A stretch of 33,832 nt of DNA from Dictyobacter arantiisoli (GTDB lineage Bacteria > Chloroflexota > Ktedonobacteria > Ktedonobacterales > Ktedonobacteraceae): the NCBI RefSeq assembly GCF_008326305.1, contig NZ_BIXY01000082.1:1-33832 (forward strand). Direction: 5' to 3'. The notes beneath the pieces are model-generated. The model searched no databases. It had not been told where the DNA came from and saw nothing but the letters and a program-made list of their open reading frames with translations. Both the position numbers and the translations under genes were made by a program. Positions 17,608 through 22,503 of this stretch are shown here, in pieces (within the stretch, counting starts at the first letter, position 1; the number at the start of each line of letters is the position of its first letter).

Positions 17608-19941
17608 ATGGAAACGAATTTTCGCATTTATACCATTATTAAAATGCTTGGGCAGCATGAAGCCAGCTCGAAGTATCTGGTCAATCCTACTGAGACACCT
17701 GAAAAAAGATTTGTCTTGCAGGTGTTTGATAAGCCCGTACTCTCTGGTCCGGCGCAGAGGGAAAAGTTTCTCCAGGAAATAGGAAAAACTCGTGCTCTGG
17801 AACATTCATTGCTTGTTCCCATCGTGGATGCAGGCATTGAAACAAGGCGTGCCTTTGTTGTCAGCCCTTATTTGACGGGTGGCTCATTGCGCGATCTGCT
17901 GATACATGCAACCGTGCCATCCCTCACGCTTGCTCGTTCGCTCGAGATAATCACGCAGATCGGGCAGGCCCTGATTTATCTCCATGCGCATGATATCACT
18001 CATGGGCATCTGGCCCCGGAGCACGTGTTCTTTGATGAGCATAAGCAAGCCATGCTGGGGGATATCTATCATTTTGAGGATCAGCCACTTCCTTCATCCT
18101 CTCCTGACTGGTATTATCAGGCGCCAGAACAGTTTCGGGCGACCGCCAGTGTGGATAAAAAAGGGAGAAGTGATGAGGAAGATGAGCCGTCGATCAGTCA
18201 CTTCAGCGATCAATATGCTCTTTGCTGCATGGCCTATGAAATGATAACTGCTCAGCCTCCCATCAAGGAGACGGTGACCCTCTCATTCGCAGAAGCTGTG
18301 CTACAGGGATCTCCCCAGCCTCTCGACGCTCTGGGGATGGAACTGCCACCAGGGCTCAATGAGATTCTCCTGAAGGGTTTAGCGAAAGATCCTGCTGATC
18401 GCTATCCTGATATCGCAACCCTGCTGGCTGATATCGAGTCGTTAGCAGCGCAGCTTGAGACACCTACCGCAGCCATTTCTAAATCCTCTACTTCATCCAC
18501 TGCTTCCATTCCTACTTTTCCCGTTCCGCGTACAAAACGGAGACAGAGCATGCTATCCTCCTCATCTGCTTTGTCAGAGGAGGAAGATACTGGAACAGAT
18601 ACAGAGAGCGGATCGGACTTGCAGCGTGACCTGGAGGCACTCTCTGACGAATTTAAACGCTCCCTGCTTGCAGCGGATAAATCCGATCCTGAGCTCAATG
18701 TTGAAACTGCTACCAGTAAGCTGGAAAGAGCGCCAGTGGTGGAGACCCATGACTCATTCGCAGAGCACGATGTTTCTGACGAGTTGCTCGCCAGTTTCCT
18801 GGCTATCGGGACACAAAGCCTATCCTCGATGAACGCTTCAATGGCAAGAGAAGAAGCTGACATCCCGACAACAAAGCTATCGCCCGCCCTCATGCCATCT
18901 TCAACTGCCAGTGCGTCCTTGAGCGCCAGAACGGCTTCAACTGCCAGTGCGTCCTTGAGCGCCAGAACGGCTTCAGCTGCCAGTGCGTCCTTGAGCGCCA
19001 GAACGGCTTCAGCTGTCGGGTCCGCGCCAACATTAACCAGACTGCCGTCATCCAAACGGTTTCAGTTGCCCATCCCATCATTCTGGCAGTATGATGATCA
19101 GACAAAGGAAAGCCATACAAGGCACTGGTCGATCCCTGTCCTTATCGCCGCAGGCTGTCTCTCTGTCTCTCTCTTTCTCAATGCCTATAATCCAGGCGTC
19201 ACTTTTTCTGAGCATGCCCCTCTGGTGCGTGTTACGCCCACCCCGACACCCACACCCACATCACTGACGTTGGTACCGCTTACTGCCCCTCCCACCGCTA
19301 CTGTGATTGTGAAGCCAACGGCCCGGCCCCGGTCCCGGCCAAAACCTCGACCAAAGGCCCATCCCACCAAATCCCCTGTTATCGTAGTGCCTACACAAGT
19401 AGTGCTCGCACCCACACCAACCTCGCCTCCTCCAGCGCCAGCGCCAGCGCCAGCGCCAGCGTCGAAGCCGAAGCCAACCCCGACGCCAGTTCCCCCTCTC
19501 TTTTCGGGGCAGTTAACCGCCTATGACTCTACTGCCAATAGCTATTCCGTCAATTATATTAACGGTTTCACAGGCAGTAATATCCGCATTGAAGCAGATA
19601 TTAAGAACCAGGGGAATGGGGGAGGCATCATTTTCCGGAGTCCAAACGGAGGAGCTACGGGCTATCGTCTGCGTATTGGGACCGATGGATATTATGATCT
19701 GGCTTCCCCGACCGGACAGTTGATCAATAACACCAAAAGTGCCAGCATCAAAACGGGGCAAAATGTGTGGAACCATGTCACTATTGTCGCGAATGGGAGT
19801 CAAATCACCATCTGGGCCAATGGGCAACTCTTGAATCAACTTACCGATAGCTCATATTCCACGGGCGGTGTTGCTGTGATGACCGTGGATTTTGGTGCTA
19901 TCGGAACGACCGTCTGCATGATGACTATTTATCGTGCTTGA
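17608..19941 (+). CDS. Membrane-anchored probable pseudokinase with external concanavalin-like domain
   Basis: The 777 residues show a Ser/Thr kinase fold (about 5-285) with the PKN-type landmarks SPYLTGGSLRDLL, YYQAPEQF (APE motif) and SDQYALCCMAYEMIT. The catalytic residues are replaced. The VAIK lysine is Gln38 (VLQVF), the HRDxKxxN loop reads HGHLAPEH (132-139; Asp to His, Lys to Ala, Asn to His), DFG reads DIY (152-154), and there is no glycine-rich loop. An acidic/Ser-rich linker follows, then three and a half 12-residue repeats (about 432-470), a membrane helix (about 510-530), a Pro/Thr stalk (about 545-630) and a C-terminal beta-sandwich (about 632-777) like LamG/DUF1080 lectin folds. 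It probably binds a sugar or wall polymer outside and recruits a partner inside. No strong ribosome-binding site precedes the ATG. Confidence 0.82.
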   Translation: METNFRIYTIIKMLGQHEASSKYLVNPTETPEKRFVLQVFDKPVLSGPAQREKFLQEIGKTRALEHSLLVPIVDAGIETRRAFVVSPYLTGGSLRDLLIHATVPSLTLARSLEIITQIGQALIYLHAHDITHGHLAPEHVFFDEHKQAMLGDIYHFEDQPLPSSSPDWYYQAPEQFRATASVDKKGRSDEEDEPSISHFSDQYALCCMAYEMITAQPPIKETVTLSFAEAVLQGSPQPLDALGMELPPGLNEILLKGLAKDPADRYPDIATLLADIESLAAQLETPTAAISKSSTSSTASIPTFPVPRTKRRQSMLSSSSALSEEEDTGTDTESGSDLQRDLEALSDEFKRSLLAADKSDPELNVETATSKLERAPVVETHDSFAEHDVSDELLASFLAIGTQSLSSMNASMAREEADIPTTKLSPALMPSSTASASLSARTASTASASLSARTASAASASLSARTASAVGSAPTLTRLPSSKRFQLPIPSFWQYDDQTKESHTRHWSIPVLIAAGCLSVSLFLNAYNPGVTFSEHAPLVRVTPTPTPTPTSLTLVPLTAPPTATVIVKPTARPRSRPKPRPKAHPTKSPVIVVPTQVVLAPTPTSPPPAPAPAPAPASKPKPTPTPVPPLFSGQLTAYDSTANSYSVNYINGFTGSNIRIEADIKNQGNGGGIIFRSPNGGATGYRLRIGTDGYYDLASPTGQLINNTKSASIKTGQNVWNHVTIVANGSQITIWANGQLLNQLTDSSYSTGGVAVMTVDFGAIGTTVCMMTIYRA
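18901..19015 (+). repeat. 36-bp tandem repeat inside the pseudokinase gene
   Basis: Three full units (18901-18936, 18937-18972, 18973-19008) and a partial fourth encode STASASLSARTA-type repeats in the cytoplasmic linker before the membrane helix. The first two units are identical and the third differs by one base, which points to recent expansion. The length keeps the reading frame. Confidence 0.95.
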
Positions 19942-19996
19942 ACGTGCCACTGACTTCGTGAGTCTGTGCGATCTTCGGGCATACGTTTTCTACAAC

Positions 19997-20046
19997 AGAG
20001 CAGAAAAAGAGACAGCCGGTTACACGCCTGTCTCTTTTTCTGCTCT
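19997..20046. terminator. Bidirectional terminator between the pseudokinase and JAMM genes
   Basis: A perfect 19-bp inverted repeat (arms 19997-20015 and 20028-20046, 12-nt loop) includes A5 and T5 runs within the stem. It lies between two convergent genes and can serve both strands. Confidence 0.8.
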
Positions 20047-20048
20047 GG

Positions 20049-20640: not shown

Positions 20641-22503
20641 TTACGCGTTACTTTTGCGTCGTGAGCGGGCTGGTATGCCGCTCAGGAAGCCACCCAGGGT
20701 CAGGATCAAAGGAATGACGATGGTGGCGGCCAGCCATACCACCAGCAGGAGGATCGGCTGTAAGAGCGTTGGATGCTGACTGATTTGCGCATAGATCCTG
20801 GCATGTCCGGCGACATAGCTCCCACCAAGCACGATGGCGACGAGGATTGAGACAATCGCCACCGACAGTACGGTTCCAAAGCCGTGTCGATAGGCTCCGC
20901 GTGCCGCGCTCACACAGGCAATGCCCATGCCGATACTTGAGACGAGCAGTCCTGCGTAGGGAAAGCTGACCACGGCTGCAAGCAGGACAACTCCCACGAT
21001 TTCTAACACGAGGCCCAGCAGGCTCAGACCAAGACTGCTTCCAACGGTCTTGCCAAAACTGGAACGAGGTTCTGTTTTCTGTTGTGCCGCTGACTCCATC
21101 TGCCCGCCATTCAGTCTGCGAATGCCGCTTTGTGTCAGGGCCAGACTTCCCATAATATTGTTCTTGATCGCATACGTCTCAGGATTCTGGGGGTCCAGTT
21201 CCAGTGAGCGTTCCACCGCCTCCAGCGCGGTCTGGTGTTGTCCCAGATTGCTCAGGACAACGGCGCGCATGCTCCAACCCATGGCGTTATCTGGATCAAG
21301 CTGCAAGATATGCTCAACCGTGCTTTGTGCTTCGCGATAGCGTCCCCCTGTCCCTAGCAGTTGTCCTTTGAGGATTAAGGCGGGTAGATCATTGGGGGCG
21401 GCCTGTAACACCTGCTCGACAAGGTTGAAGGCTTCTCCATAGTTCTGCTCTAGCATCAACTGCTGTGCTCGTTCAAGCATCTGCTGGCTTTGCTGCTGCC
21501 GCTGCTGCTCAAAGGCGGAGGCCAGATACTGGCCCGATGCAGTGGGTGAAGGCGATTGTTGGGGTGGTGTCACGGTCGCCGCGGTCGCTGCCGCTCCATA
21601 GGTCATATTGCGTTTCAGCAGCCCGCTCGTTTGCTGACCAGCATTGCCTGCGATGCCGGCTGGCGACAAATTGGGTGAAAGGGGCGGTAGCGGCATCTCA
21701 TCGCCATTGGGCAGATCCCCCACAATCACAAATGGCGTCTGCTGCTGTCCAAAGAGCTGTGGACGCTGCTGCTCCGGCAGGACACCAAAGAGATAGGCAT
21801 GTAGCTTCGCCAGCGTCACACTGCCCGTTGTCTGATCCAGCGCGGGCCCACACAATCCCAGCACCATACTATGGACCAGTTGTCCGATGCCGTGCTCACC
21901 ACTCTCTGCTGCTAGCTCATTGCCACGGCAGGAACAGAGACATAGTCGATTGGATTGTGTTTGCAGAAGCGTGTGGATTGACGTACCCAGCAAGGGCTTG
22001 GAATCAAAAGGGGAGGTCCGACGCATGGACCAGATTGGGCCAGTCTGGAAACAGTCAAATATACATAAGATCTGTGACGCATGACTTCGTGTCAGGATGT
22101 GCTGCGCAAAAGAAAGTAAGCTCAAACAGGTTGTGGGATCTTGATAACGTGAGTTGGAAAATGCAAGATACCCTTCACCCGAGCGCTCGTCAACAAAGGC
22201 ATGACCTGCGAAATAGAGCAGAATCGAGTCTCCTGCCCCCGCTTTAGTGATACATATTTGTGTGATCAGCGATTCTATCAGTTCTCGGGTGGCATGTTGT
22301 CCCTGTACGAGCTGCACATCCGGGGGCGACCATTTGCCCCCCTGGTTATTGACCAACCATTGAGCAAGCGCCCGCGCATCATTCTCGGCATAGTGCAGGG
22401 GACGAAAGGTGCTATCCTGATAGTCATTCACCCCTACAATCAGGCCAAGATGCCTGGGTGACTCTTTCTGTGCTGGCACTTTTGTCAACTCTCCAGAATA
22501 CAT
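20641..22503 (-). CDS. Caspase-fold peptidase (C14) with TPR repeats and membrane helices
   Basis: This 620-residue protein starts with a caspase-like domain (about 15-265): HLGLIVGVNDYQD (strand 1), ILLYFAGHA with catalytic His101, and ILCIFDCFQTG with catalytic Cys151 after the usual Asp. It then has a Gln-rich spacer (about 325-345), three TPR units (about 341-445; DPDNAMGWSMRAVVLSNLG, LDPQNPETY) and a C-terminal membrane part with hydrophobic segments near 490-535, 545-568 and 580-605. The protease and TPRs should lie in the cytoplasm, tethered at the C-terminus. Bacterial caspase homologues act in regulated proteolysis, differentiation, cell death or phage defence. The first gene of a two-gene unit with a JAMM protease, it has GGAAGGAAC just before the ATG. 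Confidence 0.85.
   Translation of the reverse strand: MYSGELTKVPAQKESPRHLGLIVGVNDYQDSTFRPLHYAENDARALAQWLVNNQGGKWSPPDVQLVQGQHATRELIESLITQICITKAGAGDSILLYFAGHAFVDERSGEGYLAFSNSRYQDPTTCLSLLSFAQHILTRSHASQILCIFDCFQTGPIWSMRRTSPFDSKPLLGTSIHTLLQTQSNRLCLCSCRGNELAAESGEHGIGQLVHSMVLGLCGPALDQTTGSVTLAKLHAYLFGVLPEQQRPQLFGQQQTPFVIVGDLPNGDEMPLPPLSPNLSPAGIAGNAGQQTSGLLKRNMTYGAAATAATVTPPQQSPSPTASGQYLASAFEQQRQQQSQQMLERAQQLMLEQNYGEAFNLVEQVLQAAPNDLPALILKGQLLGTGGRYREAQSTVEHILQLDPDNAMGWSMRAVVLSNLGQHQTALEAVERSLELDPQNPETYAIKNNIMGSLALTQSGIRRLNGGQMESAAQQKTEPRSSFGKTVGSSLGLSLLGLVLEIVGVVLLAAVVSFPYAGLLVSSIGMGIACVSAARGAYRHGFGTVLSVAIVSILVAIVLGGSYVAGHARIYAQISQHPTLLQPILLLVVWLAATIVIPLILTLGGFLSGIPARSRRKSNA

Follow-up and report, generated by a model that had tools for sequence, protein, structure and literature searches.

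Receptor kinases of the PknB type, such as PknB of Mycobacterium and PknB/Stk1 of Staphylococcus, run in the order kinase domain, membrane span, and outer domain, and are controlled by pairing of their kinase domains. Dead kinase domains occur in eukaryotic receptors that have a ligand-binding outer domain or a co-receptor role, a single span, and a kinase domain used for pairing or regulation; HER3 is the animal example. DRIK1 (PMC7158045) and CORYNE (PMC4983110) are plant receptor pseudokinases of this layout. Bacterial receptor pseudokinases are almost unstudied. Seven families of bacterial pseudokinases have been described (ActPs1-3, GLW, CP1, DYD, and DLHK), all degraded Ser/Thr kinase folds and several with a C-terminal membrane span, and the membrane-anchored pseudokinase EssB/YukC acts without catalysis as part of a type VII secretion system (PMC12599244). 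Characterised CBM66 modules sit on polysaccharide-degrading enzymes, including Bacillus subtilis levanase and a Cohnella xanthanase, and the ligands of known members are fructan ends or xanthan treated with a lyase (PMC11002231).

The gene studied here lies in a window of 33,832 nt that constitutes the entire contig C82 of the Dictyobacter arantiisoli draft genome (7.2 Mb, 256 contigs). It was compared with relatives of the same genus group, including Dictyobacter aurantiacus and Ktedonobacteria strain brp13. The reading frame is open across all 777 codons, and the first-pass annotation of a transmembrane pseudokinase joined to an extracellular domain was borne out by the translation, the Pfam matches, the predicted folds, and the membrane span (Table 1). 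That span is modest: its best 19-residue hydropathy of 1.86 is just below the threshold of 1.9 used elsewhere in our analysis and above the usual 1.6.

Table 1 Features of the pseudokinase gene and its downstream border, in window coordinates.
Feature	Position	Strand	Evidence or content
Pseudokinase gene, 777 aa	17608..19941	+	Pseudokinase, linker, one span, linker, CBM66-like outer domain
Pseudokinase domain, residues 8-283, cytoplasmic	17629..18456	+	Pfam, alignment, AlphaFold2
Low-complexity S/A/T-rich juxtamembrane linker, residues 291-507	18478..19128	+	
SASLSARTA, three tandem copies in the juxtamembrane linker, at residues 435, 447, 459	18910-19008	+	
Single membrane span, residues 508-527	19129..19188	+	Hydropathy
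P/T-rich outer linker, residues 528-627, containing the 5' border of the cassette	19189..19488	+	
Apparent exchanged cassette, 486 bases	19456..19941	+	DNA identity with the end of the brp13 zinc-ribbon protein gene
CBM66-like all-beta carbohydrate-binding fold, residues 628-777	19489..19938	+	Pfam, AlphaFold2, Foldseek, profile, structural alignment
20-bp inverted repeat between the convergent pseudokinase and JAB genes	19996..20047	.	-38.3 kcal/mol, z -9.1

The kinase half belongs to the protein kinase superfamily by both score and fold. It matched Pkinase (PF00069) over residues 13-265 at 1.8e-14 (54.2 bits, cut-off 31.7), and AlphaFold2 predicted a bilobal kinase fold for residues 1-290 with a pLDDT of 89.9, PknB being the top fold match; the structure prediction proposed by the first-pass annotation thus returned a kinase. 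The PknB-type receptors are its closest solved relatives in sequence and fold and share its domain order, but the active site is lost here, the outer domain is CBM66-like, and there are no PASTA repeats; the protein falls outside the PASTA kinase family PknB/Stk1 (NF033483) at 97.3 bits against an equivalog cut-off of 450. Seventeen positions were read from the translation (G15, Q16, Q38, E57, H132, G133, H134, A136, H139, D152, I153, Y154, A172, P173, E174, D201, and R265). In an alignment of 126 kinase domains from the protein's own genome and its family, Q38 aligned with the VAIK Lys, H134 with the HRD Asp, and A136 and H139 with the loop Lys and Asn, while the DFG equivalent was DIY. These substitutions and the missing glycine loop were as first annotated, as was the well-kept C-lobe with its APE motif (A172-P173-E174). 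The P+1 Gly-Thr is likewise missing from the activation segment. From the set expected of an active Ser/Thr kinase (VAIK Lys, HRD Asp, loop Asn, DFG Asp, glycine loop), only the metal-binding Asp, D152, is left; all of the fold-bearing residues are retained (H132, the alphaC Glu E57, D152, APE, D201, R265). With the VAIK Lys, both loop residues, and the glycine loop all gone, ATP binding is unlikely.

The losses are not private to this protein. We built a maximum-likelihood tree from 99 of the 126 domains, leaving out the VAIK, HRD-loop, and DFG columns, and the protein still fell within a 16-row Ktedonobacteraceae clade (support 99/97) in which 15/16 rows lack the HRD Asp, with nested nodes around it supported at 100/98, 100/87, and 99/86. 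The bootstrap was not fully settled and the branch of the protein is long (1.66); we are accordingly surer of its clade than of its precise position. Variants replacing HRD in what we define here as the Ktedonobacteraceae HRD-less kinase clade include HGN, HGH, HAN, and HAH, among others. Motif, tree, and fold evidence together support the reading of the protein as a pseudokinase with an outer domain of carbohydrate type. Most clade members keep the nucleotide and metal residues (VAIK Lys 25/27 rows, loop Asn 25/27, DFG Asp 27/27), and the VAIK Lys is missing from only one other member (L067, VIIQ); K38Q and N139H are extra steps taken by this protein beyond its clade. The nearest relatives do retain part of the catalytic set (VAIK Lys and DFG Asp), which is half of the outcome that the first-pass annotation had set against its own reading, but they too lack the HRD Asp and the glycine loop. 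A whole-protein scan of the relatives' contigs found no true or close orthologue.

Over the whole tree the HRD Asp changed state about 11 times, with at least eight changes forced by well-supported branches, so the loss probably happened repeatedly within the family. The organism's own draft genome has 13/54 kinase domains without the HRD Asp (one without an N-lobe and a few very divergent), and among 94 domains sampled more widely, in other organisms, nearly all of the HRD-less ones belonged to this family. Nine HRD-less domains of the same genome lie outside the clade (L017, L101, L098, L103, L027, L028, L021, L008, and L005), some also without the VAIK Lys, which amounts to several independent losses within one kinome. 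Nested within the clade is a brp13 subgroup (L050, L052, L054) that reads HKD and has no glycine loop; its Asp was either kept or regained by reversal.

Loss of the HRD Asp goes with loss of other residues. When the 88 domains with this Asp were set against the 38 without it, the glycine loop was present in 76/88 vs 4/38, the P+1 Gly-Thr in 85/88 vs 7/38, the DFG Gly in 81/88 vs 9/38, and the HRD Arg in 76/88 vs 1/38. The rows of this comparison are related, which makes its p-values too small, but the pattern is not chance, and the repeated origin of the HRD losses argues against a single accident. Residues that bear the fold were nearly invariant among the 38 (HRD His, here His132, 37/38; APE Glu 36/38; alphaF Asp 36/38; alphaI Arg, here Arg265, 38/38), and those for nucleotide and metal were commonly kept (VAIK Lys 31/38, loop Asn 34/38, DFG Asp 33/38). 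In two of three orthologue groups, dN/dS shows that HRD-less members of the clade are maintained: Thermogemmatispora gave 0.065-0.10 over 285 codons, and the HAN group 0.11-0.15. The third group (Ktedonobacter, HxH) gave 0.15-0.38 from few synonymous changes and is not strong evidence. The earlier suggestion that this is not decay is supported for the clade by these ratios and its structural residues; the protein itself has a long branch and no close orthologue, so relaxed constraint on its kinase half is possible, and a scaffold role is plausible.

The outer domain had been likened to LamG/DUF1080. The DUF1080 part of that likeness held: PF06439, the 3-keto-disaccharide hydrolase domain, matched residues 657-752 at 7e-11 (43.0 bits, gathering cut-off 26.8), covering only positions 52-158 of the 187 in the profile, and the fold is of a carbohydrate type, but it is closer to CBM66 than to LamG. 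An AlphaFold2 model built from seven sequences had a pLDDT of 91, and the CBM66 of B. subtilis levanase ranked first in Foldseek (E 3.7e-8), in a profile search of PDB sequences (E 7.4e-8), and in structural re-alignment (4azz, Z 17.7, rmsd 2.0 over 135 residues; next group 15.2). The modelled domain is thus nearest CBM66 by sequence and fold. CBM66 likeness, together with the known ligands of that family, makes a polysaccharide ligand likely by analogy, and membership in PF06439 leaves room for an enzymatic domain. The same outer domain type is found on kinases with an intact HRD or HCD in the same genome (L012, L023, L029, L108) and in brp13 (L042), and on pseudokinases; zinc-ribbon proteins and an HTH protein of the Dictyobacter arantiisoli genome have it too. 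At one locus of that genome (L093, C19:23000-28200), three neighbouring genes each join this domain type to a different head, a zinc-ribbon among them.

The outer domain appears to have been acquired by recent exchange of a 486-bp cassette, a history that the first-pass annotation did not anticipate. The cassette is 87.8% identical in DNA to the C-terminal end of a zinc-ribbon membrane protein gene of brp13, against 73.1% for purA and 68.2% for a spermidine-synthase-like gene in the same genome pair, and its synonymous difference is 0.20 against 0.79 and 0.71, respectively; these comparisons with the neighbour genes suggest that the move was recent. Identity is 0.82-0.93 in each 60-base step of the cassette and drops to 0.43 and below upstream, so that the 5' border is sharp within about 60 bases in the P/T linker, and the 3' border falls at the stop codon. 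A second exchange was found within brp13, where the HRD-intact kinase L042 and the HKD kinase L054 share a 486-base tail at 87.9% and have kinase domains far apart in the tree. L054 and its HKD paralogue L050 have heads with 87-88% DNA identity, L052 is a near relative, and the three similar heads are followed by different C-termini, one of them a glycosyltransferase domain.

At its locus the pseudokinase gene is convergent with a JAB-domain gene and divergent from a zinc-ribbon membrane protein gene. This arrangement, with the hairpin in the convergent gap, makes it look like a separate transcription unit. The hairpin (Table 1) is likely a two-way transcription terminator; scans for promoters and terminators scored no higher than shuffled sequence and carry no weight here. 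Four congeneric genomes (G001-G004) share the order purA, spermidine-synthase-like, zinc-ribbon, JAB, and their zinc-ribbon and JAB genes are neighbours with a gap of 65-262 bases, measured by longest ORF; brp13 has one additional gene between its spermidine-synthase-like and zinc-ribbon genes. The pseudokinase gene of the window sits between zinc-ribbon and JAB, a place from which it is absent in the four genomes, and it is an insertion relative to the kin of its neighbours. Among 29 family genomes, DNA matches to its first 2.3 kb were short pieces only. The gene stands alone, with no partner gene, defence cluster, or type VII secretion cluster beside it. Profile matches to the defence systems PD-T4-6 and MAD6 resembled general kinase-fold scores, with MAD6 far below its NCBIfam cut-off, and we do not claim a defence role. 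Next to a JAB-domain gene, a caspase-fold (Peptidase_C14) protein with TPR repeats is encoded on the minus strand (20641-22503); nothing in the equivalent regions of the four congeneric genomes matched it.

We lean towards the view that the protein is a catalytically dead, single-span receptor or co-receptor that would read a glycan outside the cell and signal by protein contact. Its CBM66-like domain may bind an extracellular polysaccharide, either the cell's own matrix or wall or plant or fungal polymers. The inner domain, with its PknB fold, would transfer no phosphate by the known mechanism and would act by binding partners, most probably by pairing with one of the cell's own active PknB-type kinases, in the manner of receptor pseudokinases in other organisms. 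Because PknB-type receptors are controlled by kinase-domain pairing and this cell also has active kinases that carry its outer domain type, pairing would be the simplest route. The protein is one of a set of HRD-less Ktedonobacteraceae membrane kinases with interchangeable outer domains.

The main rival, which we consider possible if rather unlikely, is that a degenerating kinase half merely tethers a surface carbohydrate-binding domain, the part under selection. K38Q and N139H going beyond the clade, the long branch, the absence of the gene from this place in the congeneric genomes, and a recently exchanged tail that unrelated heads also carry, zinc-ribbon and HTH proteins among them, would all suit such an anchor; it fits poorly with an intact frame of 777 codons, a confidently predicted kinase fold (pLDDT 90), and retention of every fold-bearing residue. 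A nucleotide-binding or non-canonical enzyme, performing AMP transfer, glutamylation, or weak kinase activity in place of a dead scaffold, seems improbable, since the losses listed above leave little with which to hold ATP. D152 and E57 are nevertheless retained, as are the VAIK Lys, loop Asn, and DFG Asp in nearly all clade rows, HKD occurs in one clade subgroup, and the evolution of chemistry of this sort has precedents in SelO and SidJ (PMC12599244). A chimeric assembly or an artefact of annotation, suggested by the 256-contig draft and a 5' border in repetitive P/T codons, is very improbable, as it would need two joins, the 3' border is in unique sequence, the cassette is 88% and not 100% identical to the other copy, and the second such exchange is found in a genome of 8.9 Mb assembled as a single contig.

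Relative to described systems, a dead receptor in a bacterial membrane is not new in kind, as bacterial membrane pseudokinases are already known. In the families as PMC12599244 describes them, either all three motifs are gone or those for ATP and metal are (CP1 varies), whereas our clade loses the HRD Asp and keeps the VAIK Lys and DFG Asp. That pattern and the Chloroflexota home are not described in the review, which does not mention Chloroflexota, and the clade could fall in one of the 42 families of a classification that it cites (PMC12599244). A literature search, mostly of papers open without subscription, found nothing on kinases of Ktedonobacteria, which leaves the novelty provisional. 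Compared with EssB/YukC, this protein has a carbohydrate-binding outer domain, and compared with characterised CBM66 modules, its module is on a membrane pseudokinase. DRIK1, CORYNE, and HER3 are eukaryotic and not close relatives; their likeness to it is one of layout, and of mechanism if the pairing model is right.

The clade spans several genera, has HRD-less members under selection, and includes named cultured strains (Dictyobacter, Ktedonobacter, Thermogemmatispora). As most members retain the nucleotide-binding residues and this protein does not, the clade offers a natural series on the role of a dead kinase domain, and the cassette would be a directly datable swap of an outer domain in bacterial receptors. 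More broadly, and as a conjecture that we hold to be doubtful in its full extent, Ktedonobacteria may build modular surface receptors in which kinase, pseudokinase, zinc-ribbon, and HTH heads share carbohydrate-binding cassettes swapped through P/T-linker DNA, the pseudokinases acting as dead co-receptors for active kinases with the same outer domain, with which they would pair.

Some members of the HRD-less clade have no outer domain (L035, L045, L046, L067, L147, and also L051). Their C-termini consist of a P/T linker and, after it, a short hydrophobic tail rich in Cys, such as CQCLLCLC, CRCLLLCSC, or CCWLFCKPCK, which could serve as a lipid or metal anchor.
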